Source: a virus
DNA length: 64,000 nucleotides
Direction: 5' to 3' (one strand)
IMG/VR virus record: IMGVR_UViG_3300042519_001676
Span: 1 to 64,000 of that record
Shown here: in pieces, positions 9,291-48,477 of the stretch
Numbering within the stretch: the stretch's first letter is position 1
Layout: each line of letters begins with the position of its first letter
Program-made: the position numbers and the translations under genes
Notes under the pieces: model-generated
Seen by the model: the letters and a program-made list of their open reading frames with translations, nothing else
The model's database searches: none
Told to the model about the DNA's origin: nothing

Positions 9291-9296
9291 TAAATA
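9291..9296 (+). promoter_or_regulatory. T4-late-type TAAATA motif
   Basis: GTAAATACACT immediately before the ATG at 9301 (4-nt gap). It is the first late-type motif on the + strand. Confidence 0.6.
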
Positions 9297-9300
9297 CACT

Positions 9301-9495
9301 ATGCGTCTATTATACACTGCGTTGAGTCTTGTGCCCGCACCCTTGTTCTTTATAGGTTTCATTTGGAGCCTGTTTAATCACAGTCCCATCTGCGGCACTG
9401 ACTATAGTATGACTGCCATGTGGTTTATCATGAGTCTAGCACATGTTCTACCTTGGCTACTGTGGTGGCAACAGCGTAACTTTACCGGGCCATGA
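9301..9495 (+). CDS. small membrane protein with two spans
   Basis: A 64-residue protein with two hydrophobic segments (residues about 4-26 and 37-56, the latter AMWFIMSLAHVLPWLLWW) separated by a short loop with Cys. The start is set by the TAAATA motif 4 nt upstream; no ribosome site is seen. Its 3' end overlaps the convergent gene 9457-9681 by 39 nt. Holin-like size and topology are possible, but no lysis genes are nearby. Confidence 0.6.
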   Translation: MRLLYTALSLVPAPLFFIGFIWSLFNHSPICGTDYSMTAMWFIMSLAHVLPWLLWWQQRNFTGP

Positions 9496-9681
9496 CCAAC
9501 AGCAGTGATACATGCCCTGTGTACTGGCCCATGCTGACCAATAGTAACAGTCCAATACTGCCTGTTCATCCACTATCCACAGTAGATCTTTCAACAGTAG
9601 TGTACCTTTTGGACCACTGATAACAGCGTCTAGTCTATTTGGATTCAGTGTTTGTGCAGTGACTCTCACCAATGAGATCAT
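9457..9681 (-). CDS. hypothetical protein of the radical SAM cluster
   Basis: A 74-residue protein rich in Trp, Cys and Tyr in its second half (DCYYWSAWASTQGMYHCCWSW). Its ATG overlaps the stop of the upstream gene 9678-10223 (ATGA), which argues for real, coupled translation, although composition alone is not decisive. It overlaps the end of the convergent gene 9301-9495. Unknown function. Confidence 0.5.
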   Translation of the reverse strand: MISLVRVTAQTLNPNRLDAVISGPKGTLLLKDLLWIVDEQAVLDCYYWSAWASTQGMYHCCWSWPGKVTLLPPQ

Positions 9682-10223
9682 TGTGCTTCAGGGTTAGTCA
9701 ACATAGAGTATGCTATTGGACCCACATCCAGCATTAGACTGATACGTCTTACATGCCGTCTTGTGACCACTGTAGCACGTGGAATTTTGGTGTTGATCAC
9801 TGTGGGCTTTCTCATAGTGACTCGTGCCATTTCTACAGCACTTTCACTGTTATATCTCCAGTAGTTGGCTGTCACAGTGGGATCATACTTGAGCATTTCA
9901 GCTGTGGGATAGTAAGCAGTGTATCCATACTCACAGCCTATAACTGGAATTTCCAATCTAGCACCCGGGCCCAATATTTCAGAGTATATAGCAGTACTGT
10001 CCAACTCTTTTAACACAGTAAGACTAGCAGTTTTCACAGTGAAATTATACAGACTCAACAGTGGACGTATAGTGGGAATTTCATTGTACAGCATGTCCAA
10101 ACTGATTTCACGCCATGGGATTGTTATGGGGTTATGAATCAGATCCAAACTCAATGCCAGCATTGCTGCCTGCTGTTGGATAGCTGAATGTTCGTAGTCT
10201 AGTTGTTTATAGTAGGGCAGCAT
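9678..10223 (-). CDS. unknown protein, neighbour of radical SAM enzyme
   Basis: A 181-residue protein (MLPYYKQLDYEHSAIQQQAAM) with a central GPGARLEIPVIGCEYGYTAYYP segment that could be a beta-barrel or cupin-like core, but no complete metal motif is seen. A TAAATA late motif lies 4 nt before this ATG, so the mRNA would be leaderless. It sits downstream of the radical SAM gene across a terminator and is coupled to 9457-9681. A partner or substrate of the radical SAM enzyme is inference from position only. Confidence 0.65.
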   Translation of the reverse strand: MLPYYKQLDYEHSAIQQQAAMLALSLDLIHNPITIPWREISLDMLYNEIPTIRPLLSLYNFTVKTASLTVLKELDSTAIYSEILGPGARLEIPVIGCEYGYTAYYPTAEMLKYDPTVTANYWRYNSESAVEMARVTMRKPTVINTKIPRATVVTRRHVRRISLMLDVGPIAYSMLTNPEAQ

Positions 10224-10227
10224 CCAG

Positions 10228-10233
10228 TATTTA
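10228..10233 (-). promoter_or_regulatory. T4-late-type TAAATA motif
   Basis: Minus strand ATAAATACTGG directly before the ATG at 10223 (4-nt gap). Confidence 0.55.
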
Positions 10234-10275
10234 TTTTAATGTGGTTTAAATTATTATCTGGGTAGTTTATGTTAG

Positions 10276-10320
10276 AAAAATTTCTGCGTTACCGCTTCGC
10301 GGCTTCGCCGCAAGAAACAG
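10276..10320 (-). terminator. intrinsic terminator after radical SAM gene
   Basis: On the minus strand TTTCTTGCG pairs with CGCAGAAA around an inner GCGGC-GAA-GCCGC type hairpin, followed by TTTTTC. It starts 7 nt after the radical SAM stop codon. Confidence 0.75.
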
Positions 10321-10326
10321 GAATGT

Positions 10327-11268
10327 TCAGATCTGCCGGATGGGGATCAAGCGTTTGGGAGTTAATATGTCCGTGGTGCAGTGGCAGTGGTTCAGTTCAC
10401 AGATCACGGATTCTGTGGGCCATTTCAGCAGGGGATCTTTCAGCCATCCTATATATCCGCCCTGCGAGCAGTTGCCCCTACGATAGCTGCCGTCGTACTG
10501 CACAAATAGGCTGTTTAGGCCAATGTCACATTGCCAGCCGGTGAAATAGTGTTTATTCTGGCTGATCAGCTGATTTGCCCAGGGACCCGATGCATATTCA
10601 GTGTGGCCCGCTAGATAGTGTACAGTGGCAGAATATTCCAACTTGTCAGTGGCAAAAGGACGGGGCTTTTTGTTCCGGCACTGGTCCAACCATGCTAGCT
10701 GTTCCTCAGTGTACAGTACTGTTTGACTGCCACCGCCCCAATCCAATATGCGTACAGCTTCTACACCCATGGGAGTTGCCTGCAACATTTTAAACACTCT
10801 GACACATTGATCCCATCGATCGGGATCCATCATTATTCTGGCAGTGGTGTGCGGTATCAGCTGATTAGTAGCCACAGCACGAACAACCCACTCATCGTCT
10901 GCGTATTCGGCATGATAGCTGAGACAGATATAGTCCGGGCGGCAATCACTCCAGTAATGAGCAGCACGAACACCGTTTGAAGTCACTCCTACCTGATGCC
11001 CCCTGCTGAGAAATAGATTAATGAGATCTTTAAGCCAGGGACTCACAGTGGGTTCACCACCTGCTATGGCCAACTGTATATGTTCATGTCGATCCATCAG
11101 GGCCAGGGCAAAACGTTCTGCGTGTGCCCATTCATAGTGATGATTTTTTCCAGAATGCAGTGTTGAAGGGCAGTAACGGCAGTGGTTGGTGCAGATATTG
11201 TTGATACTCCAGGTCAATTGGAATACAGGGTCGTTAGCTGTGATTTCTAAAATTTCAGTGTTTACCAT
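10327..11268 (-). CDS. radical SAM enzyme
   Basis: A 313-residue radical SAM protein. The CX3CX2C iron-sulphur motif is Cys26, Cys30 and Cys33 (NNICTNHCRYCPS), followed by the GGEP motif (AIAGGEPT, residues about 67-74). The C-terminal third has further cysteines (GWQCDIG, RRGNCSQGG, VICELNHCHC), suggesting a SPASM-like auxiliary cluster region. Such enzymes modify peptides, tRNA or cofactors; the substrate here is unknown. It lies beside the tail fibre gene, transcribed divergently from a late-type motif, so it may act late in infection. A TAAATA lies 6 nt before the ATG, with no ribosome site. Confidence 0.88.
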   Translation of the reverse strand: MVNTEILEITANDPVFQLTWSINNICTNHCRYCPSTLHSGKNHHYEWAHAERFALALMDRHEHIQLAIAGGEPTVSPWLKDLINLFLSRGHQVGVTSNGVRAAHYWSDCRPDYICLSYHAEYADDEWVVRAVATNQLIPHTTARIMMDPDRWDQCVRVFKMLQATPMGVEAVRILDWGGGSQTVLYTEEQLAWLDQCRNKKPRPFATDKLEYSATVHYLAGHTEYASGPWANQLISQNKHYFTGWQCDIGLNSLFVQYDGSYRRGNCSQGGYIGWLKDPLLKWPTESVICELNHCHCTTDILTPKRLIPIRQI

Positions 11269-11274
11269 ACAGAG

Positions 11275-11280
11275 TATTTA
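11275..11280 (-). promoter_or_regulatory. T4-late-type TAAATA motif
   Basis: Minus strand GTAAATACTCTGT before the radical SAM ATG at 11268 (6-nt gap). Confidence 0.65.
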
Positions 11281-11296
11281 CTTGTTAATATCCTGC

Positions 11297-11302
11297 TAAA
11301 TA
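11297..11302 (+). promoter_or_regulatory. T4-late-type TAAATA motif
   Basis: CTAAATATA 38 nt before the fibre ATG at 11340, with an AGGATAACC site in the leader. This is the leadered class of late promoter. Confidence 0.65.
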
Positions 11303-11336
11303 TAAAAATTAGCATATCTAAACAGGATAACCTTGA

Positions 11337-16723
<5,387 letters not shown>

Positions 16724-16728
16724 AGTTT

Positions 16729-17446: not shown

Positions 17447-17452
17447 TATTTA
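17447..17452 (-). promoter_or_regulatory. T4-late-type TAAATA motif
   Basis: Minus strand ATAAATAATAG, 6-nt gap to the ATG at 17440. Confidence 0.55.
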
Positions 17453-17458: not shown

Positions 17459-17464
17459 TAAATA
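17459..17464 (+). promoter_or_regulatory. T4-late-type TAAATA motif
   Basis: TTAAATATCTCG directly before the ATG at 17470 (5-nt gap), divergent from the minus-strand copy 12 bp away. Confidence 0.65.
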
Positions 17465-17469: not shown

Positions 17470-18030
17470 ATGAGTGAAATAAAAAGTTTAACCGGAAGTA
17501 TTATAGTATCGCAGCCTAGAAGCGAGGATCCCTATTTTACCAAGGGAGTTATATTAGTTGCAAAACACAGTCCTAGCGGGTCTTGGGGTTTAATGGTTAA
17601 CAAACCTGCCGCAAATTTAACCCTGGGTACAATTATGCAGGCAGTAGGGATTGATTCAAAAAAACGAGATAAAGTATTTGTTGGAGGACCAGTCGATACG
17701 CACAGAGTGTTTATTATTCATACTCTAGATTGGCAAAGTTCTAATACTATAAAAATTACGCCAGATATTGGAATCACTAACGAAATGGCCATACTTGCTG
17801 CAATTAGTAAAGACGAAGGCCCGGGACTTTATAGAACATGTATAGGTAGCTGTGGTTGGGCACCTAATCAATTAGACGGAGAATTTAGGGGAGATCCTCC
17901 GTGGAAACCACAAAATAGATGGCTCGATGCCCCGGCAACCATTGAGTCAATTTTCAATCTAGTCGATGACGGTCAATGGAATCGCAGTATAGAACTAGTT
18001 GCACAAAACAAAATCTCCAATTGGCTTTAA
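17470..18030 (+). CDS. YqgE/AlgH-family protein
   Basis: A 186-residue protein matching the bacterial YqgE/AlgH (UPF0301) family: SLTGSIIVSQPRSEDPYFTKG at the start, GSWGLMVNKPA (about 37-47), VFVGGPVDTHRVFIIHT (about 75-91), and GSCGWAPNQLDGEF (about 134-147). Length fits the usual 180-190 residues. The bacterial family has no firm biochemical role, though AlgH is linked to alginate regulation. A phage copy is unexpected; capture from a proteobacterial host is inference. It is on the + strand among minus-strand genes and overlaps the helicase gene end by 4 nt. Confidence 0.85.
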   Translation: MSEIKSLTGSIIVSQPRSEDPYFTKGVILVAKHSPSGSWGLMVNKPAANLTLGTIMQAVGIDSKKRDKVFVGGPVDTHRVFIIHTLDWQSSNTIKITPDIGITNEMAILAAISKDEGPGLYRTCIGSCGWAPNQLDGEFRGDPPWKPQNRWLDAPATIESIFNLVDDGQWNRSIELVAQNKISNWL

Positions 18031-19475
18031 TCCTTTTCCGGACTAAAACTACTCAGGATATCTCTAACACTTCTTTGTTGCGGTGAGACTTTGGCCTTAG
18101 GCAACGAGCTGCCTCTAGTAGGATCGATTTCACCAGTTTCCGGATCAACGTTAGTTGCTGTAACTACACTGGTTTTCTTTAATCCGTCAATTAATGCATT
18201 GCTTGCTGCACTACGTTGTTGGCTAAAACTGCCCTCTTCTTCTTCACCTAAGTCCTTAATTCTAAGACTATCGATGTCAAATTCTAAGTCAACCTTTTGC
18301 CCTACTCCGCTCGAACTACGTGTCTTCATAAATTGAATTTGATAACGTCCACGTTCACGCATAGCCCTACTGGTAAAGATACCAATAACGTTATCTGCTG
18401 TTTGAATCTTACTTAAACCACCTGAGATGTGACTGTGATCAAATTCGATTTCTTCAACAGCACTGCGGTTCAACTGTGCGGCAGTTACTACTACACACTG
18501 AGTTTCCATTGCAAAGTTACGAAGCTCTTCTGATACGTATTTGTCTTTAACAAACAAGTCACTTGGGCTAACTTTAACACTTAGTGGCATCATAAGGTCC
18601 AAGTAGTCCACTAAAATAATGTCAGGTTTTTTGCCTGTTTTGACCTGATATTCTTTTAAATATGACCTTAAATCGTTACAGTTTTTGCCGGAAGGCATGT
18701 ATTTTATCTGCATTCCGCCAGCACGGCGACCAGTGAGTTTAACCTTCATTTCAACGTCATCTAAGTTCTTAAAGATGTCTTTGGAAGCAATACCAGTTAG
18801 CATACTGTCCACACGCATACCCACTAAACCTTCACTCAATTCAAAGGTAAAATAGATCACGTTCAACCCGGCGAGCGAAAAGTTTACACCTAAGTTGGCA
18901 AGGAATAAACTCTTACCGCCACCAGAGCCAGCACAGAAAATGTTCAATTCACCACGCTTGAAACCGCCGTACAGCTTGCGATCAATACTTGGATAACCAG
19001 TGCTGATCTGTCCATTATTGTCCTTCAACAATAACAAGCGGGCTCTTGGATCAAACCAGTAGTCAGTGCCCATGTCTTTGTTCAAACTGATCTGGATAGC
19101 GTCTTTGATCAGCTTTTCGACCGGAGTGTACTCGCCCTTTTCCAACAAGTCGGCTGATTTAAGAATTGCCCGCTCTAGCCCTTTATGTCGACTAAATGTT
19201 TCAAATTCATTCATCAACCAGTCATAGTTTTCTTTAGGTAATGTAATAGCCTGAAAGTCTGTGCTACAGCTAGCATTAACAATACTAACCTCAGGCATGA
19301 CTTTGTAGTCGTCTACATACTTGGTAACAAACGCCGCAGAATCCTGATATCGTTTGTCAAAATTTTCAGCATCAAAGATATTCTGACAGCGGATAAAAGT
19401 TTCAGCATCTGAAAGAAACATCTCCAGATACAGTTTTTGCATTTCTGCGTTATAATTAGGTTTGTTCATCGTCAT
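18027..19475 (-). CDS. 41: replicative DNA helicase, gp41/DnaB-like
   Basis: A 482-residue RecA-fold helicase. The N-terminal part (1-140) is the helical primase-interacting region, and Walker A is GSGGGKS (about 183-189) within GELNIFCAGSGGGKSLFLANLG. Walker B (IILVDYLDLMMP, about 275-285) and the DnaB-type arginine-rich end (SRAMRERGRYQIQFMKTRSSSG) follow. As T4 gp41, it would unwind DNA ahead of the fork with primase gp61. The primase gene lies immediately upstream and overlaps by 20 nt. The tail past residue 430 is Ser/Pro/Lys-rich and variable. Confidence 0.9.
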   Translation of the reverse strand: MTMNKPNYNAEMQKLYLEMFLSDAETFIRCQNIFDAENFDKRYQDSAAFVTKYVDDYKVMPEVSIVNASCSTDFQAITLPKENYDWLMNEFETFSRHKGLERAILKSADLLEKGEYTPVEKLIKDAIQISLNKDMGTDYWFDPRARLLLLKDNNGQISTGYPSIDRKLYGGFKRGELNIFCAGSGGGKSLFLANLGVNFSLAGLNVIYFTFELSEGLVGMRVDSMLTGIASKDIFKNLDDVEMKVKLTGRRAGGMQIKYMPSGKNCNDLRSYLKEYQVKTGKKPDIILVDYLDLMMPLSVKVSPSDLFVKDKYVSEELRNFAMETQCVVVTAAQLNRSAVEEIEFDHSHISGGLSKIQTADNVIGIFTSRAMRERGRYQIQFMKTRSSSGVGQKVDLEFDIDSLRIKDLGEEEEGSFSQQRSAASNALIDGLKKTSVVTATNVDPETGEIDPTRGSSLPKAKVSPQQRSVRDILSSFSPEKD

Positions 19476-20466: not shown

Positions 20467-21585
20467 TTAGCTTCTTACAAGTACTTTGTCAATTTTTCCG
20501 TTTGGATAATAAGCCGAACCAGGAGTAGGATTGCCTGGCATTTCAGGACTGTAGAAGTTTAACAGATTTGGTAAATTTGAATTATCAGGATACCATTTTA
20601 CTCTAACATCACTCCAAATGCCTACTGCATTTGCATAATCTACACCGGTAAAATTTGTATAGGTTTTAGTTTCTAATGTTGCATAATTAGCAAAGTTAGA
20701 AGGTGCATTGTCCAAGGTTGCTTGCACATCTACGGTGCCAGTGTAATTGGTAAAATACATAGCGATTGTAGTGGCCTGACTCATTTCAGGATTTGCACGT
20801 AAGTTTCCAGAATAGAATTCATATCTATTAGGTTCGACGTCCCTATTTGCAAAATATTTAAAGGCAGCAGTTTCTAAACTGTCTTTCAATACTGGTACAA
20901 GTTCGCTAGTTAATCTTGCAACTCCGGCAATATTATAATATGTGTTTGAATATGCAGGGATAGATGAACCATCATTGTCAGTCAATGTAACTGAAAAATT
21001 ATAGTAACCGTTATGTAGTTCTCGAGTGTCGTTTTCAGTCAACGATAATACCGCTAGTCCGCGAGTTGCAGTAGTAACACCGTTGTCAATAACTTCAAGT
21101 GTTTTCTGCACAACCATTCTATTTTGTTCTGCATCAAACATAGAAAATACAAAATTATGATTGAAAGTAACCGCGGTGCCCGATGTTATAGTTTCAGTAA
21201 TGGGTGATAGGAATTGTCCTAGATCAGCATCGTATTGTGGATCTAAGTTATCAAGTGTTAGGGTATTTGAATTAATTGCAGAAATATAAGTGCCGTTAGT
21301 TACACTATCACTGTTCACTAGCATACCTACTTGGACATTGGTAGCATCGGCTACTGTGAGTAAATTAGAAGCAGATGTTGCAGCCCCAACAGTACTAGAT
21401 GCAGCTAAAATTCTAACTAATTTTTGATCAGAGTTTTTAAACTGTAGCTGTACCTTGTTTTTAAGTCCTCTTTGTAATTTTAACTCTCGTTGGTACATAG
21501 TTTCATGTGTCCTTGTTATATCGTCGTCCAGATCTAATTGTACACTGAACAAATTGGAGTATAAATAGATTGGTAATTTCTGCAT
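20467..21585 (-). CDS. probable virion structural protein
   Basis: A 372-residue Asn/Thr/Ser-rich beta protein starting MQKLPIYLYSNLFSV. Gaps such as SASNLLTVADATNVQVGM resemble beta modules of tail or fibre proteins. The start at 21585 is chosen because a TAAATA late motif is 5 nt upstream and the N-terminus (LPIYLYSN) fits similar phage proteins; a start at 21636 would lie behind the divergent gene's start. Late-type promoter and composition suggest a virion component; no named homologue. Confidence 0.7.
   Translation of the reverse strand: MQKLPIYLYSNLFSVQLDLDDDITRTHETMYQRELKLQRGLKNKVQLQFKNSDQKLVRILAASSTVGAATSASNLLTVADATNVQVGMLVNSDSVTNGTYISAINSNTLTLDNLDPQYDADLGQFLSPITETITSGTAVTFNHNFVFSMFDAEQNRMVVQKTLEVIDNGVTTATRGLAVLSLTENDTRELHNGYYNFSVTLTDNDGSSIPAYSNTYYNIAGVARLTSELVPVLKDSLETAAFKYFANRDVEPNRYEFYSGNLRANPEMSQATTIAMYFTNYTGTVDVQATLDNAPSNFANYATLETKTYTNFTGVDYANAVGIWSDVRVKWYPDNSNLPNLLNFYSPEMPGNPTPGSAYYPNGKIDKVLVRS
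21560..21567 (+). promoter_or_regulatory. T4 late consensus TATAAATA
   Basis: Exact TATAAATA on the + strand, 32 nt before the ATG at 21600, within the start of the divergent structural gene. A chance match in A/T-rich DNA cannot be excluded. Confidence 0.4.
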
Positions 21586-21590
21586 ACATA

Positions 21591-21596
21591 TATTTA
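21591..21596 (-). promoter_or_regulatory. T4-late-type TAAATA motif
   Basis: Minus strand ATAAATATATGT directly before the ATG at 21585 (5-nt gap). Confidence 0.6.
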
Positions 21597-21599
21597 TTA

Positions 21600-21983
21600 A
21601 TGACCAACAAGGACGAGTTTCAACAAAAGTTTCCATTCATAACCTGCATCAAAACCTCAGATAATGAGTATATAGGTATCATTGTAAATCACGATGATAA
21701 CGTTACTAGCATATACAACTATGCTGATATACGCAACGAAGAACATAAACACTTGTTCTTAGAAATGGGAGAAGTTTGGTGGTGGGAAAGTAATAGGAAA
21801 ATCCCTATCAACATTTTTCTAAAACAAGAAATGGTGGCTTTCAGGCCTTTTATAAAAACATTCAACAGCAAAGATGTTGAAATTATTTTTGGGCCAATTG
21901 TTAATCTAGGTGAGATTGCTGAAAAGCGTGTCAAACGCAAGAGCATTCAACTGGTTAGAAGTGTTAAGAAAAAGGGTAGCTAA
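21600..21983 (+). CDS. conserved T4-like phage protein, unknown function
   Basis: A 127-residue protein (MTNKDEFQQKFPFITCIKTSD) with EYIGIIVNHDDNVTSIYNY, MGEVWWWESNRKIPINIFLK and a basic C-terminus (EKRVKRKSIQLVR). The WWWESNR block looks like a conserved signature of T4-like phages of aquatic hosts, in my recollection. The basic end suggests nucleic-acid or polymerase contact, which is inference. It lies alone on the + strand and overlaps the DnaE-like gene end by 20 nt. Confidence 0.75.
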   Translation: MTNKDEFQQKFPFITCIKTSDNEYIGIIVNHDDNVTSIYNYADIRNEEHKHLFLEMGEVWWWESNRKIPINIFLKQEMVAFRPFIKTFNSKDVEIIFGPIVNLGEIAEKRVKRKSIQLVRSVKKKGS

Positions 21984-30059: not shown

Positions 30060-30113
30060 AATGTTTTTCCTTAATGTTGATTTATTATGCCTCTTCTTTA
30101 AAGCCCACTGACT

Positions 30114-30150
30114 AAAAAGAAAAACTGTGCATACGGTTAAGTATACACAG
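30114..30150 (-). terminator. intrinsic terminator between FkbM gene and gp32
   Basis: On the minus strand CTGTGTATAC and GTATGCACAG (arms at 30141-30150 and 30125-30134, one mismatched pair) form a 10-bp stem, followed by TTTTTCTTTTT (30114-30124). It separates the methyltransferase from gp32 transcription. Confidence 0.85.
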
Positions 30151-30183
30151 CTTTATTTATCACTGCAACCTATTTGGTTGAAA

Positions 30184-32843: not shown

Positions 32844-32849
32844 TATTTA
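32844..32849 (-). promoter_or_regulatory. T4-late-type TAAATA motif
   Basis: Minus strand ATAAATACGC, 7-nt gap to the ATG at 32836, inside the end of the terminase gene. Confidence 0.5.
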
Positions 32850-34436
32850 TTAATAATGTGATACAAATATCGGCATGGGCAGATCAATATCGTCCATTGC
32901 CCTATCTTCTACCATTCGATCGTACACTGTAGGATCCCAATCACCTAACTGGCTGATCATCCGTACTGCTAGTAGCGTAGAAGATACTAGATCGTCGTGT
33001 TCATTGGTTTTTGCTTCAAAACTAATGCCTTTTGCAATATAAGTTTTAAGCTCACTGATTAGGGCTTTACTTTTAATTTTTAAACGTTTTTGTTCAATTA
33101 ACTGCTTGAGCTTTGCACACGCGGATATTTTGCTTACATTTGTAGTGTTAAAACCTCTGCGGAATCGTCTCACGTGCCCTTTCTTAATGGGCTCGCTCAT
33201 AAACATTCCGGGTATAGTTTCTTCGCCCATTTCGTTAATTGCAACTAGAGCAGCTTCTCCAACAGTATTGTTTTCTACTGAGTAATAGATCTGGCCTCTA
33301 TTTTCGCTCTTTGAGCATTCATTATCGATGTGCTTGCAAATATCTCGCATGATTCTAACCTGCTGTTGAACTGGAGTAGTATTGTGATTCCACTCGCCTA
33401 CTTGTTCAAAGCTAGGTACTTCAAATATCTGAAGTGCTGCATAATCCCCGCCCGTGCCCAGGCTTGGATCAAGAGACACAACATATATACTGTTAGGATC
33501 TATCTTCTTGTACCACCTTACCTGACCCATTTTCATGATCGGGTCAACACCTTCTAGATCAGATAATGTAATACTATTAATCAGAGTTTCGTCAAAAATC
33601 AAGAATTCGCAATCGTGTTCTCGACGGAATCTCTCCTCACCAATACGGGATTTTTCAGTGTCAGCCCACTCTTGGTCTCTGTCTGGATGCTCTCTCCAAA
33701 ATGCTCTAAAGGGGAAGAATCCGTTACGACCAACTTCTTGTTCGTTCCCGTATTCGTCAAATTTCTTGTTTGCTTCTTTCCAGATCTGTGCAAACTGATC
33801 TTCGTCACTGTTTGGCGTAGAAGTAATAATCGCCTTACCACCAGTAGCTAGTGTAGGGCTAATAGACGTCCAGAATTCTGTAGCAATGTTAGGTTCAACG
33901 AATGCAAACTCATCAGCGTATAGTAAGGACAAAGATAAACCTCGACCAGTAGTCGGAGTAGTTGTCTGTGCAATAATACGTGAACCGTTGTCAAATTCAA
34001 TGCTCTGTTTATTGTAACTCTTTACACCGCAACGAATATGATCGGGACATAATTCGTATGCATAACGAATACGCGACATAATTTCCTGGGCACCTGTATA
34101 CTTGTGAGCTGCAACTAAGATAGTTGAATCAGGAATAAACATAGCGTACCATAACAGGTAGCCCGCCGCGGTAGTAGTTTTACCTGTTTGACGTGGTAGT
34201 AAATTTACATTAAATCGATGATCGTGATAACTGTCGATTAATCTTATCTGATATTCGAACGGTACATACTTCATCTTACCCTTAACTGGATGTTGGATGT
34301 AGAAGAAATTATCAAGAAAATAATGAGGGCCAATTACTGAATCAGTACATTTCATTAAATCTTCGATGTCCTGTTCTGTCCATTTCTGTGTAGAATAGGG
34401 CTTCTTGATTAAGTTATCGTATTTGTTAGCTGACAT
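32850..34436 (-). CDS. 17: large terminase subunit gp17
   Basis: A 528-residue DNA-packaging motor. Walker A is LLPRQTGKTT (79-88), Walker B is LLYADEFAFV (about 173-182), the motif SPTLATGGKAIITSTPN fits the coupling region, and the C-terminal RNase H-like nuclease starts at VSLDPSLGTGGDYAAL (about 299). It cuts concatemers and pumps DNA into heads with gp16. A TAAATA motif ends 5 nt before the ATG at 34436, giving a leaderless message. A terminator lies just upstream. T4 gp17 is 610 residues. Confidence 0.93.
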   Translation of the reverse strand: MSANKYDNLIKKPYSTQKWTEQDIEDLMKCTDSVIGPHYFLDNFFYIQHPVKGKMKYVPFEYQIRLIDSYHDHRFNVNLLPRQTGKTTTAAGYLLWYAMFIPDSTILVAAHKYTGAQEIMSRIRYAYELCPDHIRCGVKSYNKQSIEFDNGSRIIAQTTTPTTGRGLSLSLLYADEFAFVEPNIATEFWTSISPTLATGGKAIITSTPNSDEDQFAQIWKEANKKFDEYGNEQEVGRNGFFPFRAFWREHPDRDQEWADTEKSRIGEERFRREHDCEFLIFDETLINSITLSDLEGVDPIMKMGQVRWYKKIDPNSIYVVSLDPSLGTGGDYAALQIFEVPSFEQVGEWNHNTTPVQQQVRIMRDICKHIDNECSKSENRGQIYYSVENNTVGEAALVAINEMGEETIPGMFMSEPIKKGHVRRFRRGFNTTNVSKISACAKLKQLIEQKRLKIKSKALISELKTYIAKGISFEAKTNEHDDLVSSTLLAVRMISQLGDWDPTVYDRMVEDRAMDDIDLPMPIFVSHY

Positions 34437-34441: not shown

Positions 34442-34447
34442 TATTTA
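34442..34447 (-). promoter_or_regulatory. T4-late-type TAAATA motif before terminase
   Basis: Minus strand GGTAAATATTCAC then ATG (5-nt gap). Confidence 0.7.
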
Positions 34448-34450: not shown

Positions 34451-34478
34451 AAAAAAATAGCCTCCTAAGAGGCTATTT
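34451..34478 (-). terminator. intrinsic terminator upstream of the terminase gene
   Basis: Minus strand stem AAATAGCCTC/GAGGCTATTT (34455-34464 with 34469-34478), 4-nt loop, followed by a run of T (34451-34457 on the minus strand). It ends the operon of the gene at 34495. Confidence 0.9.
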
Positions 34479-36032: not shown

Positions 36033-36500
36033 TTATTTATCCAGATTTTTAAGTTTTGCAATGAGGCTGTTACGGTCTGTAATCAGCACTCCTTCAGCTT
36101 GTACTGACTCAGGATTTGCATTACCTTCTTTTTTATCTACAGCATATTTTTTTAGCTGTAATTCTACCATTTTTAACTTTTTATCAATTTTTGCACTTTT
36201 GGCAGTGATTGCGGCATTTAGCATATTGCCTGCAACTTCAAACATGCGGGCACCGTAACGTGCTTCGACGTTCATACCTAGATCCATTAGATCGTCGTAG
36301 GCTTTTTCAGCTTTGTTTGCTAGTGCATCTAATTCACTATCGCTAATGTCGCCAAGTCCTTTAACACGAGGTAAGGCTGCTGAAATTTTGTCAAATTCTT
36401 CTAGTTTTTCTTGTAAGGAAATTGTTATAGGTTCGGCAGGAATAACTACTTCCTCGTTATCTTGCGGCAAATTAAAAAGTTCTTCAAGTTTCTTTGTCAT
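36033..36500 (-). CDS. 16: small terminase subunit gp16-like
   Basis: A 155-residue helical protein. The central ALANKAEKAYDDLMDLG and MFEVAGNMLNAAITAKSAKIDKK resemble the T4 gp16 pattern of helices (YxDLxxxGxxAxDDLxxIAxxSExPRAYEVxxxLIKTLSDxN). gp16 forms rings that recognise DNA and stimulate gp17. Location beside gp4 and upstream of gp17 supports it. Size is like T4 gp16 (164). Confidence 0.7.
   Translation of the reverse strand: MTKKLEELFNLPQDNEEVVIPAEPITISLQEKLEEFDKISAALPRVKGLGDISDSELDALANKAEKAYDDLMDLGMNVEARYGARMFEVAGNMLNAAITAKSAKIDKKLKMVELQLKKYAVDKKEGNANPESVQAEGVLITDRNSLIAKLKNLDK
36034..36039 (-). promoter_or_regulatory. T4-late-type TAAATA motif
   Basis: Minus strand GATAAATAAAG 17 nt before the ATG at 36016, with AGGAAATC in the leader; within the end of the gp16-like gene. 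Confidence 0.5.
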
Positions 36501-36508
36501 AATATTAC

Positions 36509-36949
36509 TTATCGCTTTTTACTGCCATTATGGAAAATATCACGCTCGCTTACTACTCTAAACTGTATTCCACGGGCTTTACACCATGCACTGGCTGCTT
36601 CCCATTTTGCCATATTTTTTACATAAGCTGCTTGATTATGGGGGTTCTTGCCCACAGATTCTTTTACTGCTTGATTGTTGGGTTTAATTTCTATCATTTC
36701 CGCATGACGTTTTTGATTCTTATCCGAATAGACGATTAAAAAATCCGGAACGTATACTGTATTCTTTCCGGTGAGCGGATCTCTATAAGGAATCTTAACA
36801 GCTTCACTAGCCCACTGCTCTATTGCAGGGTTGTTGTCGCAGAACAGCATAAACGTATGTTCCCAACTTGATCTATAAACAGGATCATGTTGCCCCACAA
36901 ATTTTTCAGGATTTTTGGGAATGTATCGACCTTTAGCTGTGTTTCTCAT
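36509..36949 (-). CDS. 4: head completion protein gp4-like
   Basis: A 146-residue protein matching the gp4 head-completion family of T4-like phages: GRYIPKNPEKFVGQHDPVYRSSWEHTFMLFCDNNP, PYRDPLTGK, VPDFLIVY and EMIEIKPNNQ. The E...PDF...EIKP arrangement is that of a PD-(D/E)xK nuclease fold (TnsA-like), thought to trim DNA ends while the head is closed. It starts at the stop of the upstream gene (1-nt overlap). Confidence 0.85.
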   Translation of the reverse strand: MRNTAKGRYIPKNPEKFVGQHDPVYRSSWEHTFMLFCDNNPAIEQWASEAVKIPYRDPLTGKNTVYVPDFLIVYSDKNQKRHAEMIEIKPNNQAVKESVGKNPHNQAAYVKNMAKWEAASAWCKARGIQFRVVSERDIFHNGSKKR

Positions 36950-38941: not shown

Positions 38942-38947
38942 TATTTA
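38942..38947 (-). promoter_or_regulatory. T4-late-type TAAATA motif
   Basis: Minus strand CTAAATATTACT then ATG (5-nt gap). Confidence 0.7.
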
Positions 38948-38952: not shown

Positions 38953-38975
38953 AAAAAAAGGCCCCCTAAAGGGCC
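38953..38975 (-). terminator. intrinsic terminator after tail tube gene
   Basis: Minus strand GGCCC (38971-38975) pairs with GGGCC (38960-38964), loop TTTAGG, followed by TTTTTTT (38953-38959). It separates gp19 from the baseplate gene. Confidence 0.85.
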
Positions 38976-39654: not shown

Positions 39655-39660
39655 TATTTA
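39655..39660 (-). promoter_or_regulatory. T4-late-type TAAATA motif before gp19
   Basis: Minus strand GGTAAATATTAAGG, 22 nt before the ATG at 39632, with AAGGAG between. Confidence 0.7.
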
Positions 39661-43078: not shown

Positions 43079-43084
43079 TATTTA
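43079..43084 (-). promoter_or_regulatory. T4-late-type TAAATA motif before gp18
   Basis: Minus strand ACTAAATATAC 33 nt before the ATG at 43045. Confidence 0.7.
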
Positions 43085-43110: not shown

Positions 43111-43116
43111 TAAATA
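43111..43116 (+). promoter_or_regulatory. T4-late-type TAAATA motif before HNH gene
   Basis: GTTAAATACTGAAC 31 nt before the ATG at 43148, with AAAGGGCGG in the leader. Confidence 0.55.
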
Positions 43117-43147: not shown

Positions 43148-43483
43148 ATGCGTGATCTATGTAAAAAATGTCAAAGAAGGCCTGTTGCTATCAATTATCT
43201 TAAAGAAGGCAGGATATACTATAGGTCAATGTGCGATCATTGTTCTAAGAGTTACAAGACAGCTCGCCCTACCTGGTCAAGTAGTGGGTACAAAAAGAAA
43301 GCCGCATGTGATAGATGCGGCTTTAAAGGTGAAGACTCGGAGCAGTTCGATGTGTATCACATAGACGGTGACATCAGTAATTGCAAGTATTCAAATTTAA
43401 AAACAGTCTGTGCTAACTGTCAACGAATATTACACAAGCTCAAACAACCTTGGAGGCGTGGGGATCTAACACCAGATTTTTAA
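43148..43483 (+). CDS. HNH endonuclease-like protein
   Basis: A 111-residue protein with Cys5/Cys8 and Cys29/Cys32 (CKKC, CDHC) zinc knuckle, then an HNH core: CDRCGF (Cys54, Cys57), YHIDGDISNCKYSNLKTVCANC (His71, Asn84, Cys88, Cys91). Free-standing HNH nucleases of this size are common in T4-like phages, either as homing enzymes or packaging helpers. Strand is opposite to neighbours and its end overlaps the dNMP kinase gene end by 44 nt, a sign of insertion or independent expression. Confidence 0.8.
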   Translation: MRDLCKKCQRRPVAINYLKEGRIYYRSMCDHCSKSYKTARPTWSSSGYKKKAACDRCGFKGEDSEQFDVYHIDGDISNCKYSNLKTVCANCQRILHKLKQPWRRGDLTPDF

Positions 43484-44096: not shown

Positions 44097-44124
44097 AGTA
44101 TCTCCTGCGATACTATAATTTACA

Positions 44125-44883
44125 TTATCCTATGACAAATGTCAACGGTGTTTGGTTATCTTTGTAGTTGATTAGATCCATTTCTAAGGCTTCCATTTCG
44201 GCTTTGCCTTCTGATTTTAATGCAGTACCGTTTAGGTTGGTGCCGCCTTGCGGACTTGCAATAGTTGCAAACTTTTCACGTGCTTCACCTAGCATGACTT
44301 TACAGTTTGCCAGTGCATAGTCCTTGATCCATATGCCAGAGTAAGGGTCTTGAATGATGGTAAAATCAGGCTTCTGATTATACATCCACAATAGAACGTT
44401 TTCTTCTCCGCGAGGGCGTTGAGTAATTCTCAAACGCTTTGCAGTAGGATTCCAATCAAAGTTAATGTAGCTACCAAACATTTTACCAACTTCTTTCTGG
44501 TAGCTAGCAAACATATAATAGGTAGCAATCCCACCCATCTGTGTGCTGGCCATTAGATAAGTGTTAGTATAGGCCAAGTTAAACGGTTCAAATAGCGTAC
44601 CGCCATCGCCACCGCCTGTTCTACTGCCTACGCTTCTACGAAATACTTGACGAACTTGCATAACTTCTGGTGCAAGTATGTAATCATTAACATCTGTTTG
44701 CAAGGTTAAGAAGCCAAAACTTTCTTCAACAGCATTGCTGCTACGTTGACGATATTTTGCTAGGGCACGATCAATAGCAGTATTGTAGTGTTTAGGGTCT
44801 AATTCAACATCGACCATCCCGTCACCTAGCATGGTACGGATATATTCAACTACGTTTTGTCTTTGGGTGTCAAGTTCGTTCAT
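44125..44883 (-). CDS. 13: neck protein gp13-like
   Basis: A 252-residue protein with VVEYIRTMLGDGMVDVELDPKHYNTAIDRALAKYRQRS, TDVNDYILAPEVMQVRQVFRR and WMYNQKPDFTIIQDPYSGIWIKDYALANCKVMLG, the gp13 neck pattern of T4-like cyanophages. gp13 and gp14 close the head and connect the tail. The ATG at 44883 is preferred to the TTG at 44898 because TAAATA ends 5 nt before it; no Shine-Dalgarno site exists. Its gp14 partner is transcribed divergently from 28 bp away. Confidence 0.78.
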   Translation of the reverse strand: MNELDTQRQNVVEYIRTMLGDGMVDVELDPKHYNTAIDRALAKYRQRSSNAVEESFGFLTLQTDVNDYILAPEVMQVRQVFRRSVGSRTGGGDGGTLFEPFNLAYTNTYLMASTQMGGIATYYMFASYQKEVGKMFGSYINFDWNPTAKRLRITQRPRGEENVLLWMYNQKPDFTIIQDPYSGIWIKDYALANCKVMLGEAREKFATIASPQGGTNLNGTALKSEGKAEMEALEMDLINYKDNQTPLTFVIG

Positions 44884-44888
44884 ACCAA

Positions 44889-44894
44889 TATTTA
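44889..44894 (-). promoter_or_regulatory. T4-late-type TAAATA motif before gp13
   Basis: Minus strand GCTAAATATTGGT then ATG (5-nt gap). Confidence 0.7.
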
Positions 44895-44898
44895 GCAA

Positions 44899-44904
44899 TA
44901 AATA
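44899..44904 (+). promoter_or_regulatory. T4-late-type TAAATA motif before gp14
   Basis: AATAAATATATGACT then ATG at 44912 (7-nt gap); divergent from the gp13 motif with 4 bp between them. Confidence 0.6.
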
Positions 44905-44911
44905 TATGACT

Positions 44912-46117
44912 ATGCCAAGACTATCACTTTACCGCCCTGAAAAAGGCAATGATTTCCGTATGATTGACCGTGTCATTTATGAACAGTTTCAAGTCGGCGG
45001 TACTGATATCATTATTCACAAATACCTAGGTCCTGCTGACCCTTTAGAGGGCGAGGCAACTCCTACCACTCCTGTAAACACTAACCCTATTCCTGAACTA
45101 GGAATACAAGATGTGTTGTTTATGGAAAATAGAGACAGAAAATATGAACCCGATGTGTATGTTTCTCGAGGAATCTACACAATGCAGGATATTGATTTTA
45201 ATCTTCAGCAGTTTGGTTTCTTCTTATCTAACGATAACATTATGATTACTTTCCACCTACGTGGTATTGTAGAACTGTTAGGTAGAAAATTAATGGCAGG
45301 AGATGTGTTAGAACTGCCGCACTTAAAAGACGAATATGCACTAGGCGACGATATGGTTGCACTAAAACGATTTTATGTAGTGTCGGATGTTGCTCGTCCT
45401 GCATCAGGTTATAGCCAAACATGGTATCCACATTTGCTCCGTGCAAAATGTGAGCCACTAGTTGACAGTCAAGAATACAAACAGATATTGGATCAAGACA
45501 GCGGTGATGGACAGAACAGCCTTCGAGACATCCTTTCAACATACAATCAAAACATTGCCATTAACAATCAAATTATTGCACAGGCAGAATCAGATGCTGG
45601 GTTAAGTGGATACGACACTGATCAATATTATATTTTGCCTTTACAAGAAGATGGCAAATTAGATATTCGAGACACTACTGATACAGATGTTGATGCTAGC
45701 TATGACGGTAATGCAGCAGATGCAAGTTCTGTATTTGTAACTCCTGAAAAAGACGTTTACATTAGCTATCTTCAAGGAGACGGCAAACCACCAAATGGAG
45801 CACCTTACAGTTTCGGCATTGAATACCCAGCTAACCCCGGTATAGGTGCATATCATTTACGCACAGATTACATGCCAAATAGATTGTTTAGATTTAGCGG
45901 CAACGGTTGGGTTTATGTAGAAAGCAATGTTAGAATGACTATGACTAACAAGCCAGTTGACGGAATTCCTGCACCAGATGCATTAACTAGACATACTCAA
46001 CTTGGCAGTTTTATTAACAATAACAACACTGCAACTATTGCAGGCCGAGTTATTGAAGAGAGACAGAGTCTAAGTAAGGCTTTAAAGAAACGACAGGGGC
46101 CTGAAGCAGATTTATGA
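44912..46117 (+). CDS. 14: neck protein gp14-like
   Basis: A 401-residue protein starting MPRLSLYRPEKGNDFRMIDRVIYEQFQVGGTDIIIHKYLG, the typical gp14 opening. It continues with DPLEGEATP, IQDVLFMENRDRKYEPDVYVSRGIYTMQDIDFNLQQFGFFL and DVLELPHLKDEYALGDD. It joins head and tail. The start at 44912 fits the family and the TAAATA motif 7 nt upstream; 44906 is possible. Longer than T4 gp14 (256) through a C-terminal extension after residue 200 (TPEKDVYISYLQGDGKPPNG). The stop overlaps the next gene by ATGA. Confidence 0.85.
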   Translation: MPRLSLYRPEKGNDFRMIDRVIYEQFQVGGTDIIIHKYLGPADPLEGEATPTTPVNTNPIPELGIQDVLFMENRDRKYEPDVYVSRGIYTMQDIDFNLQQFGFFLSNDNIMITFHLRGIVELLGRKLMAGDVLELPHLKDEYALGDDMVALKRFYVVSDVARPASGYSQTWYPHLLRAKCEPLVDSQEYKQILDQDSGDGQNSLRDILSTYNQNIAINNQIIAQAESDAGLSGYDTDQYYILPLQEDGKLDIRDTTDTDVDASYDGNAADASSVFVTPEKDVYISYLQGDGKPPNGAPYSFGIEYPANPGIGAYHLRTDYMPNRLFRFSGNGWVYVESNVRMTMTNKPVDGIPAPDALTRHTQLGSFINNNNTATIAGRVIEERQSLSKALKKRQGPEADL

Positions 46118-46275
46118 TAGAGGTATATATGGACGATTATCAAAATTACAAAAGATTTACATCTAAATGCAAATGCGGATGTCCTGCACACTGTGATCAT
46201 AGTTGTACTGAGTGCGAATACTGTCCGGACTGCGAATGCCCTGAATGCAAAGAGCTTGACAAATCTAGAGGATAA
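46114..46275 (+). CDS. 53-residue Cys-rich protein
   Basis: A 53-residue ORF fitted between gp14 and gp15, overlapping the gp14 stop by ATGA and ending 5 nt before gp15. It has ten cysteines (CKCGC, HC, SC, EC, YCPDCECPEC) and two histidines, enough for two zinc or iron sites in a metallothionein-like or zinc-ribbon arrangement. An in-frame ATG at 46129 would give 48 residues. No family recognised; a metal-binding role is inferred from cysteines. Confidence 0.7.
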   Translation: MIEVYMDDYQNYKRFTSKCKCGCPAHCDHSCTECEYCPDCECPECKELDKSRG

Positions 46276-46280
46276 AATTA

Positions 46281-47711
46281 ATGGAACATTTTTACGACGG
46301 CCAAATACGCCGTTACTTGACACAATTTATGCGACTAATGAGTAATTTTACTTACAAAGATGGTCGTGGAAATGTGATTCAAATACCAGTTAGATATGGA
46401 GATATGTCTAGGCAAGTAGCCAGCACATTGAAAAAGAACAGTGAGAACGTGCTTAACTCTGCACCTTTCATTGCCTGCTATATTAAAAGTCTAGACATAG
46501 CCCGCGATAGGTTACAAGATCCTAGCTTTGTGGGCAAAATGCACATTAGAGAAAGGCAGTTTGGTTACGTTGATGAAAACCCAGATAGCCCTACATTTGG
46601 ACAAACTATTCAAGACTACGCAAATGTGCAAGGTGAAAATTATACAGTTGAACGATTAATGCCAACACCGTTTAATTTACAATTTGTTGCAGACGTGTGG
46701 AGTACCAACACTGAACAGAAACTACAAATTCTAGAACAAATTTTAGTATTGTTTCGTCCTGCAATGGAAATACAGACTACTAGTAACTATATTGATTGGA
46801 CCAGTCTCAGCTATGTAGAGCTTACCGGAATGAATTGGTCTAGCAGAACTATTCCGCAAGGTACTGAAAACGACATTGACATTGCCACCATGAATTTCTT
46901 AACTCCTATATGGTTAAGTCCTCCTGCTAAAGTTAAAAAGTTAGGTATCATTACTAAAATTATTGCTAACATTTTTGCAGAGGAACAAGGTACAAGTGCA
47001 ATGGGTCCTGAATTTAGTTTCTCTAATCCAGTATCTAGAGTCACGGTAACTCCGGGCAACTTTTCGATCTTGTTAACAAATAACACAGCTAAACTAATGG
47101 CAGCATCTGAAAACTTGTTAGTAAATGACTTAGAACAGATTCCAATTAAAGCTGGCACTAAAATTAACTGGAAGGCATTATTAGATCTATATCCTGGCAA
47201 GTTTAGAACAGGACTGAGCCACATCGAACTTACAAAACTTGATGGTGGGAAAATTGTAGGCTACCTAAGTATTAATCCATTTGACGAAGCAGACATGGAT
47301 GTTTTAAACATTCAGTTTGACGGAGAAACTTTGCTGAACACTGCAATTTCTGATCTTACAAATACTGTAAGTAGGGGCACAGTCAATGCTATTGTAAATC
47401 CAAAAACATTTAATCCAGGTACACCTAGTGTTGATGCACGTTATTTGATACTAGAAGATATTGTTACAACAGAAGAGGATGGACCTAATGCATGGGCCAA
47501 CAGTAATAGCACCAACTTTACTGCATCTGCAAATGATATTATTCAATGGGACGGAGTGCAGTGGAATATAATTCTCAGTTCTGCAGATACAACTGAAACA
47601 ACATATATAACTAATTCATATACAGGAATACAATACAAGTGGGATGGCACCCAGTGGTCTAAGAGTGTAGACGGTATGTATTATCCTAGTGAATGGCGTT
47701 TAGTTTTATGA
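46281..47711 (+). CDS. 15: tail sheath stabilizer gp15-like
   Basis: A 476-residue protein opening EHFYDGQIRRYLTQFMRLMSNFTYKDGRGNVIQIPVRYGDMSRQVAST, followed by NVLNSAPFIACYIKSLDIARDR and NYTVERLMPTPFNLQFVADVWSTNTEQKLQILEQILVLFRP, the T4-like gp15 pattern. gp15 caps and stabilises the tail before it binds the neck. T4 gp15 is 272 residues, so a long C-terminal extension is present, with a KWDGTQW-type end. An AGAGGATAAAA site precedes the start. Confidence 0.88.
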   Translation: MEHFYDGQIRRYLTQFMRLMSNFTYKDGRGNVIQIPVRYGDMSRQVASTLKKNSENVLNSAPFIACYIKSLDIARDRLQDPSFVGKMHIRERQFGYVDENPDSPTFGQTIQDYANVQGENYTVERLMPTPFNLQFVADVWSTNTEQKLQILEQILVLFRPAMEIQTTSNYIDWTSLSYVELTGMNWSSRTIPQGTENDIDIATMNFLTPIWLSPPAKVKKLGIITKIIANIFAEEQGTSAMGPEFSFSNPVSRVTVTPGNFSILLTNNTAKLMAASENLLVNDLEQIPIKAGTKINWKALLDLYPGKFRTGLSHIELTKLDGGKIVGYLSINPFDEADMDVLNIQFDGETLLNTAISDLTNTVSRGTVNAIVNPKTFNPGTPSVDARYLILEDIVTTEEDGPNAWANSNSTNFTASANDIIQWDGVQWNIILSSADTTETTYITNSYTGIQYKWDGTQWSKSVDGMYYPSEWRLVL

Positions 47712-48142
47712 TACGTGAAGACATTGTATGCAGTGGAGGTTTATTCTTTGCTAAAGATACAAAAAGATTTTTATTTTTGTTAAGAAATCAAGGCAAAACT
47801 GCGGGCACATGGGGCATTGTTGGCGGCAAGAAAGAGCCTGCTGATGCTACTCCGTATGCCGCATTAGAAAGAGAAATCACAGAAGAAGTTGGATCTCTGC
47901 CTAAAATAAAGAAAGTAATTCCGCTAGAGCTGTTTACTAGTGAAGATCAACGATTTTATTTTAACACATACATGTTAATTGTTGACAAAGAGTTTATTCC
48001 TGTGCTTAATGACGAACACGTGGGATACGCATGGTGCAGTTTAAATCAGTGGCCAAAGCCTCTGCATCAAGGTGTTAAGAGAAGCCTATCTAATCGAACT
48101 AACAAAACTAAAATAGAATTGCTAATTGAAATAGTCAGCTGA
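47708..48142 (+). CDS. Nudix hydrolase
   Basis: A 144-residue Nudix protein. The Nudix box spans residues 39-62 (GGKKEPADATPYAALEREI then TEEVG), all catalytic residues (REITEE) present. Nudix enzymes cleave nucleoside diphosphates linked to other groups, such as damaged dNTPs or capped RNA. The ATG at 47708 overlaps the gp15 stop (ATGA), so it is coupled to tail-gene expression. Confidence 0.85.
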   Translation: MIREDIVCSGGLFFAKDTKRFLFLLRNQGKTAGTWGIVGGKKEPADATPYAALEREITEEVGSLPKIKKVIPLELFTSEDQRFYFNTYMLIVDKEFIPVLNDEHVGYAWCSLNQWPKPLHQGVKRSLSNRTNKTKIELLIEIVS

Positions 48143-48466
48143 TTACCAAGGCTTGTTTAGAGTAACAACAGCAGGTGCCTTTTGTTGCTCAATTTGATTT
48201 TCTAAATTTAGTTTATAATCTGCAAGGACTTCTTCACCCATTGCAGTTTCAACCCAGGCCTGCACAGCATCTTGAGTCAATAGATTAAATGGCTTATATG
48301 TTTCTGGATCAGGTTCCGAAAGGCCAACTGAACCAAAAATTTGAGATCCGTGCCCTTCACCGTCTGTTGCAGATAAGATAAACTCTACATTATACACGAC
48401 ATTTGTCAAGCCGTTTAATGTAGGGTGTGCAGCAAATCTAGGAAATTCCCAAGTATATGTAATCAT
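48143..48466 (-). CDS. small TYTW-type protein, copy 1
   Basis: A 107-residue protein starting MITYTWEFPRF and containing VVYNVEFILSATDGEGHGSQIFGSVGL and LLTQDAVQAWVETAMGEE. It is a paralogue of the proteins at 49035 and 49690. Such proteins are found near fibre genes of T4-like phages with unknown function (a DUF7936-like group, by recollection). Start at 48466 is chosen because a TAAATA motif is 5 nt upstream. Confidence 0.72.
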   Translation of the reverse strand: MITYTWEFPRFAAHPTLNGLTNVVYNVEFILSATDGEGHGSQIFGSVGLSEPDPETYKPFNLLTQDAVQAWVETAMGEEVLADYKLNLENQIEQQKAPAVVTLNKPW

Positions 48467-48471
48467 AATAA

Positions 48472-48477
48472 TATTTA
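48472..48477 (-). promoter_or_regulatory. T4-late-type TAAATA motif
   Basis: Minus strand GATAAATATTATT then ATG at 48466 (5-nt gap). Confidence 0.65.

Follow-up and report, generated by a model that had tools for sequence, protein, structure and literature searches.

Leaderless messenger RNAs are known from the lambda cI gene, transcribed from PRM, and from mycobacteria, and they show a strong preference for AUG as start codon. In the available part of one paper (PMC5312081) phage transcripts are described, citing Brock 2008, as "often leaderless" in general; late promoters of the phiKZ nvRNAP carry there a TATG whose G is the start, and the leaders of AR9 are 26-491 nt long. According to the accessible text of PMC2988020, the late box of T4 spans -13 to -6.

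Here, we analyse 64,000 nucleotides of a viral genome (hereafter the window), positions 1 to 64,000 of the 84,294-base IMG/VR virus record IMGVR_UViG_3300042519_001676, in which the hexamer TAAATA, the core of the T4 late box, lies 4-7 nt before the ATG of twelve genes. With a probability of about 0.86, judged from the sequence, the late genes of this phage and its relatives form two classes, leaderless and Shine-Dalgarno (SD)-led, which would be transcribed from one T4-type promoter type. The first-pass annotation had suggested leaderless and leadered late classes, and this is supported by the conserved spacing, the bimodality of the distances, the contrast in SD sites, the bias towards ATG and the strict box shared by both classes.

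The closest described system is the T4 late promoter (gp55/gp33/gp45), with which the clade shares an AT-rich box about one turn before the predicted transcription start (+1) and a gp55-family sigma. However, the clade conserves only the last 6 bp (TAAATA) of the box. In T4 the histogram of box-to-ATG distances rises at 21-29 nt, before SD-led genes, the matches at 5 nt lack a convincing gene start, and SD words top the hexamer scan, with TAAATA at -34. The lambda cI and mycobacterial mRNAs are similar in the lack of an SD site and in the 5'-terminal AUG (predicted in the clade), but here the class would be genome-wide, made of T4-like late genes and tied to one promoter type. The phiKZ and AR9 systems, as described in the part of PMC5312081 available, differ in both polymerase and motif.

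Spacing of the TAAATA box to the start codon

The large terminase (gp17) of the window shares less than 60% identity with each of the 2,519 matching phage records, and the closest among the matches listed is from the Pseudomonas jumbo phage PA5oct (54%). From IMG/VR, 80 of 559 gp17 relatives and 80 of 436 gp13 relatives were kept, together 160 loci. One 151-kb record, G001, has gp17 and gp13 proteins identical to those of the window and extends the genome. A scan of genome contigs for a host of the clade found no relative.

Below, the gap is the number of nucleotides between the box and the start codon. TAAATA occurs 30 times in the window (observed/expected 0.56), and among the 64 TAANNN hexamers none is more strongly avoided. 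Given these copies, an ATG follows at gaps 4-7 twelve times, against 1.9 expected (P about 7e-7), and at gap 5 six times, against 0.47 expected. Over the 160 loci, 540 TAAATA sites were kept after removal of near-duplicates (<30% mismatch) and of boxes near locus ends (40 nt before, 76 nt after). ATG stands at offset 5 from these sites 88 times, against 9.5 expected, and a second hump is found near 19-34 nt. When ORFs shorter than 60 aa and duplicate N-termini are excluded, 26 families use gap 5, while 13, 11 and 8 use gaps 4, 6 and 7, and offsets 8-16 have a mean of 2.3 families each.

The same two classes appear in four long clade records, with 69 starts at gaps 4-7, 10 at 8-16 and 79 at 17-37 (ORFs shorter than 60 aa or open for more than 40 codons upstream excluded, here and in the counts of start codons and box variants); gaps 8-16 are used at background level only. 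G001 has 79 boxes, and 43 boxes are followed by an ORF of at least 40 codons, 20 at gaps 4-7, 21 at 17-42 and two in between; ORFs shorter than 40 aa or open for at least 60 codons upstream were excluded and the 44912 gene was counted at its gap 7. With +1 placed 6 nt downstream of the box, short-gap genes would have leaders of about 0-3 nt and the others leaders of 12 nt or more, in which an SD site has room.

The hexamer also stands out from scans of other kinds. In six clade records analysed without any ORF filter, no hexamer is more enriched 5 nt before ATG than TAAATA (63 vs 8.8), and the SD words rank below it. In a scan of start candidates with no preset motif, the highest-ranking pair of hexamer and position is TAAATA at -11, both in G001 and G005 and in G002 and G003 combined; over these four records it occurs 41 times vs 0.58 and outranks AAGGAG. 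In eight clade records the TAAATA-N5-ATG pattern is found 80 times and its reversed form 14 times. An expectation that the distances would be sharper than in shuffled DNA is thus borne out by the peak at 5 nt in the relatives, but not by the raw count in the window, which stays at shuffle level.

The box is strict. TAAATA precedes 209 starts and single-base variants precede 0-5 each, except TAAGTA (31) and TAATTA (14); the 10 TAAGTA cases listed of 35 all belong to one family, that of the 36500 gene. Among the SD-led genes, too, TAAATA is the commonest form (234 vs 4-49). Conservation does not extend to the first TA of the T4 octamer, and of the T4-type box only the core is present here; the 8-bp box TATAAATA, cited in the first-pass annotation for T4, is not enriched in the window (2 vs 3.96 expected), whereas the hexamer alone is. 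The 14 nt upstream of the box have no strongly conserved letter, and the -35 region proper was viewed in single contexts. At gap 5 the base before the ATG is T (0.64) or C (0.27) in family-weighted counts, i.e. a pyrimidine in about 91%.

TAAATA is likewise the most avoided of the 64 hexamers in G001, G002, G003, T4 and PA5oct; it ranks second in G005 and P-SSM2, third in HTVC008M and 38th in Syn9. The avoidance resembles selection against stray late boxes; Syn9 lacks it. The hexamer is absent from the first 9.3 kb of the window (1-9290), a region rich in small ORFs and possibly an early gene block.

Short-gap and leadered genes

All twelve sites named in the first-pass annotation are present with the gaps it gave, six of them exactly 5; the list also holds a variant box at 36506-36511.

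9291-9296, plus strand: TAAATA box, gap 4 to ATG 9301; 64 aa, no PHROG family
10228-10233, minus strand: TAAATA box, gap 4 to ATG 10223; 181 aa, no family
11275-11280, minus strand: TAAATA box, gap 6 to ATG 11268; radical SAM-like gene
17447-17452, minus strand: TAAATA box, gap 6 to ATG 17440; back to back with the box at 17459
17459-17464, plus strand: TAAATA box, gap 5 to ATG 17470; AlgH-like gene, DUF179
21591-21596, minus strand: TAAATA box, gap 5 to ATG 21585
32844-32849, minus strand: TAAATA box, gap 7 to ATG 32836; virion structural protein
34442-34447, minus strand: TAAATA box, gap 5 to ATG 34436; gp17, large terminase
36506-36511, minus strand: variant box TAAGTA, gap 5 to ATG 36500
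38942-38947, minus strand: TAAATA box, gap 5 to ATG 38936; tail-tube-related structural protein
44889-44894, minus strand: TAAATA box, gap 5 to ATG 44883; gp13-like neck/head-tail adaptor
44899-44904, plus strand: TAAATA box, gap 7 to ATG 44912; virion structural protein
48472-48477, minus strand: TAAATA box, gap 5 to ATG 48466; DUF7936

Conservation was followed gene by gene, with one hit per gene and locus and without hits that align only from beyond residue 25 or that lie less than 60 nt from a locus end. Contexts differing by one base count as distinct, and the records of one family depend on each other. The smallest gap was scored if more than one box or start fitted, a bias towards short gaps in spite of which sheath and tube still come out long. 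The gap is 5 in 55/55 distinct contexts of the 38936 family (identities 35-100%), in 49/52 of gp13, the other three having no box, and in 43/48 of gp17, where the rest are at 4, 4, 6 and 8 and one has no box. The 32836 family has gaps 4-7 in 51/51 distinct contexts. In the 44912 family 40/50 are at gap 7, the rest at 1, 1, 5, 6, 8, 8 and 29 with three lacking a box. This gene has a further in-frame ATG at gap 1, and since the smallest gap is taken the window's own context is scored 1. The gp14 label given to it earlier is unsupported, as PHROG describes a "virion structural protein" and there is no Pfam hit. In two relatives, L056 and L069, the 44912 homologue has a long leader with AGGAG and an ATT where the others have ATG; a non-canonical start codon is possible, and the start is not certain.

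Fewer relatives are available for the other sites. Gaps are 4-7 in 4/4 homologue contexts of the 17440 family (identities 41-100%), 5 in 4/4 of the 17470 family (37-100%) and 4-6 in 4/4 of the 21585 family (31-100%). For 9301, 10223 and 11268 the single homologue available is an identical copy. The 48466 family has gap 5 in 10/12 distinct contexts, but it is the weakest case because a GGAG stands 12 nt before the ATG, where the preceding coding frame also ends: the upstream 2OG oxygenase gene has its stop codon in the TAA of the box. This site is ambiguous, and translational coupling is possible.

The 36500 gene is probably a thirteenth member of the short class. Its homologues have TAAGTA exactly at gap 5 in 28/38 distinct contexts, and in 8 of the other 10 the same word is moved by 1-2 nt. 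The head-closure gene before it ends with the TAA of this box. From its position and size we infer a small-terminase-like product.

The leadered genes of the window have their boxes farther upstream.

43079-43084, minus strand: box, gap 33 to tail sheath ATG 43045; 53/53 contexts at 18-35
39655-39660, minus strand: box, gap 22 to tail tube ATG 39632; 43/52 contexts at 18-24, nine without box
43111-43116, plus strand: box, gap 31 to ATG 43148, HNH-like; 56/58 contexts at 17-32
49651-49656, minus strand: box, gap 21 to ATG 49629
49444-49449, minus strand: box, gap 25 to ATG 49418, TYTW gene
57502-57507, minus strand: box, gap 21 to ATG 57480, giant tail fibre
36034-36039, minus strand: box, gap 17 to ATG 36016, with AGGA
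11297-11302, plus strand: box, gap 37 to ATG 11340

The 17-38 bp reported earlier for sheath, tube, fibre and TYTW genes agree with these gaps of 33, 22, 21 and 25.

SD words are strongly enriched elsewhere in the clade genomes, and the two classes differ sharply in them. A 4-bp SD match is found in 254/328 long-gap records and in 31/337 short-gap records, i.e. 306/337 of the latter are without one. The claim that none of the twelve genes has an SD site holds for eleven, the exception being 48466 with its GGAG. In many relatives the 36016 gene belongs to the short class (gaps 5-7) and has no SD site; within this family the site is absent in 29/29 short-gap contexts and present in 10/11 long-gap contexts. 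The family has switched between the classes.

The start codons point in the same direction. At gap 5 there are 209 ATG and one TTG (n=210), while behind AGGAG there are 243 ATG, 16 GTG and 9 TTG (n=268; Fisher P 6e-6, with records that are non-independent). Pooled over gaps 4-7, 321/325 starts are ATG. True starts with an SD site might lie elsewhere, and we searched upstream to the stop and downstream up to 40 codons: seven of the twelve genes have no in-frame alternative start with an SD match of at least 4 bp, but five have one. These are, for 21585, an ATG 51 nt upstream with TGAT and an ATG 87 nt downstream with AAGGA; for 34436, an ATG 81 nt downstream with AGGA; for 44883, an ATG 66 nt downstream with AGGTGA; for 44912, an ATG 48 nt downstream with AAGG; and for 48466, a TTG 18 nt upstream with AAGGA. 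The first codons of 44912 (MPRL) are conserved with synonymous changes and the gp17 alignments begin at residues 1-9 among the relatives listed, which speaks against downstream starts in these two genes. An upstream in-frame start within about 50 nt is found in 1/51 gp17 contexts.

Two boxes stand directly behind intrinsic-terminator-like hairpins.

34455-34478, minus strand: hairpin and T tract directly before the gp17 box; 49/50 gp17 records
38960-38975, minus strand: hairpin and T tract just before the 38936 box; 44/56 family records

By the same criterion 6 of 2000 random 45-mers have a hairpin. Read-through should stop at the two hairpins, and a promoter is therefore expected in the few remaining bases. 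The divergent pairs 44883/44912 and 17440/17470 have both boxes back to back within 28 and 29 bp. With a terminator or a divergent gene so close, some short-gap genes have hardly any space for a further promoter.

The AlgH-like gene (17470-18030) in the second pair has a predicted short-gap late promoter. At 21560-21600 two divergent genes (21585, minus; 21600, plus) have crossed late boxes, the plus box (21562-21567) inside the coding region of 21585 and the minus box (21591-21596) inside the leader of 21600. Upstream of the ssDNA-binding protein gene (30100-30165) the spacer of a sigma-70-like TTG...TATACT contains a TAAATA, a hairpin with a T tract follows immediately, and two relatives have a similar layout.

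Proposed mechanism and alternative explanations

In the mechanism we propose, a gp55-like phage sigma would recognise a T4-type late promoter with the core TAAATA at -11 to -6. The use of the box as a promoter and the position of +1 are taken over from T4 numbering; with the T4 box at -13 to -6, TAAATA-N5 would make the A of ATG the first transcribed base. For roughly one late promoter in two (20 of 43 boxes in G001) +1 would be the A of the start codon or lie 1-3 nt before it; the gp55-directed polymerase would start at the A of AUG and yield leaderless or near-leaderless mRNAs, on which host ribosomes would initiate at the 5'-terminal AUG. The other half of the promoters, at least 17 nt before the start, would give leaders of at least 12 nt, which fits the SD sites. 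A gp55-family sigma gene (phrog_234) is found in five of eight clade records, including G001 (E 7e-27 to 2e-25), and not in G000 (the window's 84-kb record), G005 and G007.

Phage-encoded translation helpers were considered as a cause and rejected, as bS21 and IF3 were each found in 0/8 clade records, which may be fragments. The sole tRNA gene found in the window, G001, G005, G002 and G004 is a tRNA-Met with a CAT anticodon (L177:1220-1294, i.e. G001:C1:121220-121294). The acceptor stem of an initiator tRNA is not expected to begin with a G-C pair; this tRNA has G-C as its first acceptor pair and is therefore probably not a phage initiator.

Several observations weigh against two late classes of this kind. 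The 5' ends across the clade are predictions from sequence. The gp45 clamp (PF09116) is found in 0/8 clade records, with a profile that matched no control either. The 43148 family has long gaps, yet AGGA, GGAG or GAGG is missing in 50/53 contexts, and the 48466 family has short gaps, yet GGAG in 10/10 contexts. The preference for ATG is less clear at gap 4 (15 ATG and 3 GTG, n=18) and weaker at family level, where a non-ATG start occurs in 1/29 families vs 20/117. Upstream in-frame starts within about 50 nt exist in 13/51 contexts of gp13, 15/43 of 44912 and 10/10 of the family containing 48466. The pattern of T or C followed by A at +1 is missing at the same place in the leadered class, a hairpin precedes the box in only 3/39 short-gap families, and in the window TAAATA-N1-10-ATG occurs 13 times, not above the 11.0 of dinucleotide shuffles.

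The last point is the one in favour of chance, or of a by-product of AT-rich intergenic DNA. The plain count is at shuffle level because TAAATA itself is rare in the window. Given the existing copies, the excess is clear, and chance is rejected by the 88 vs 9.5 sites at offset 5, the hexamer scans, the locking of the gap gene by gene and the strictness towards variants; T4 and PA5oct are AT-richer and have no comparable peak. We regard this explanation as negligible. SD-less genes often have AT-rich start regions, and TAAATA at a fixed distance from the ATG could be a non-SD initiation element in leadered mRNAs started farther upstream. Since most single-base variants are almost absent, the box is a specific hexamer and not AT-richness. 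It recurs 17-37 nt upstream of SD genes, SD words are used widely in the same genomes, and at gp17, 38936, gp13, 44912, 17440 and 17470 an upstream promoter would have little space, though it might lie within a neighbouring coding region. An initiation element is thus improbable.

Translational coupling, in which ribosomes that finish the upstream gene at the TAA of the box start again at the ATG close by, fits the geometry of 48466 and 36500, where box and stop overlap, and of 32836, where the stop TAA lies directly before the box; at these three genes coupling could serve, and this too counts against leaderless initiation there. It is impossible for the divergent genes 44883, 44912, 17440 and 17470, unlikely behind the terminators at 34436 and 38936, and leaves the conserved ATA or GTA after the stop unexplained, so that as a general explanation it is very unlikely. 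Ultra-short leaders of 2-3 nt, at least in the gap-7 genes, are a variant compatible with leaderless and leadered late classes. Gap 7 is kept in the 44912 family (40/50), and ACT precedes the ATG in most of its contexts shown, which suggests +1 at that A; with 26 families at gap 5 vs 8 at gap 7 the variant is possible but doubtful overall. For the gap-7 genes themselves, leaders of 2-3 nt and fully leaderless mRNAs are equally likely.

Given the two late classes, the leaderless one might, speculatively, keep low-copy products (terminase, neck, gp25-like) low, with capsid, sheath, tube and fibres SD-led. The HNH-like 43148 gene and baseplate proteins (G001 5409 and 22284) are leadered, which argues against the simplest form of such a role of copy number.

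Comparison with other phages

The first-pass annotation had advised a comparison with related phages, and this places the 5-nt peak in the 160 clade loci and in the cultured pelagiphage HTVC008M. Among 16 selected records of cultured phages, a subset of the T4-likes, the TAAATA-N5-ATG and reversed patterns occur 15 and 12 times in PA5oct, 3 and 2 in Phosso, 15 and 9 in Atu_ph07, 4 and 10 in CBB, 10 and 5 in T4, 3 and 3 in Syn9, 2 and 2 in KVP40, 6 and 6 in P-SSM2, 0 and 0 in phiM12, 14 and 4 in HTVC008M, 11 and 3 in Mosig, 5 and 3 in Melnitz, 6 and 5 in S-SKS1, 0 and 0 in DLP_6, 0 and 1 in Cr30 and 0 and 0 in phiW-14. In box-to-ATG counts a clear 5-nt peak is absent from T4, Syn9, P-SSM2 and PA5oct. 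Of the 10 T4 matches, 4 open an ORF of at least 30 codons, two inside longer frames and two of 41 and 62 codons.

The two Pelagibacter phages HTVC008M and Mosig share the excess with the clade, but they are a distant lineage in which mostly other genes are concerned (DNA end protector, head closure, tail completion and others). In HTVC008M an ATG stands at gap 5 in 14 cases, against 3.5 expected. This phage has 15 short-gap sites with an ORF of at least 30 codons; 13 of them lie within two annotated stretches that we inspected, and all 13 are deposited CDS starts. Its genes at 18916 and 18943 (DNA end protector, head closure) form a divergent pair with back-to-back boxes. The gp25-like gene is of the short class in both lineages, and the capsid gene is SD-led in HTVC008M as in the four clade records inspected of seven with a capsid match. 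Pelagimyophages encode bS21 according to the available text of PMC7029224, whereas it was not found in the eight clade records. P-SSM2 and Syn9, listed in the same family as HTVC008M, are without the peak, and the short class would therefore have arisen by convergence or have been lost.

Tentatively, a leaderless late class may have evolved at least twice, in the uncultured clade related to PA5oct and in the pelagimyophages. The distance between box and AUG would then act as a switch of translation mode, leaderless for low-copy and motor proteins and SD-led for bulk structural ones, and the state of initiation in the host late in infection would set the groups differently.

A literature search, with most subscription papers and all preprints outside its scope, gave no description of leaderless late genes as a class in T4-like phages. 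The sequence evidence supports T4-type late promoters that are predicted to yield leaderless mRNAs as a class, and T4 itself is without such an arrangement. The class could explain why the prediction of middle and late promoters in pelagimyophages is reported as unsuccessful in the accessible part of PMC7029224, and the cultured pair HTVC008M and Pelagibacter HTCC1062 allows a direct test. If true, there is a branch of the textbook T4-type late transcription in which about half of the late promoters yield leaderless mRNAs, and these would coexist with plainly SD-using genes in the same phages. This would offer a natural comparison of leaderless and SD-led translation within one genome, with the 36016 family having switched between the two.

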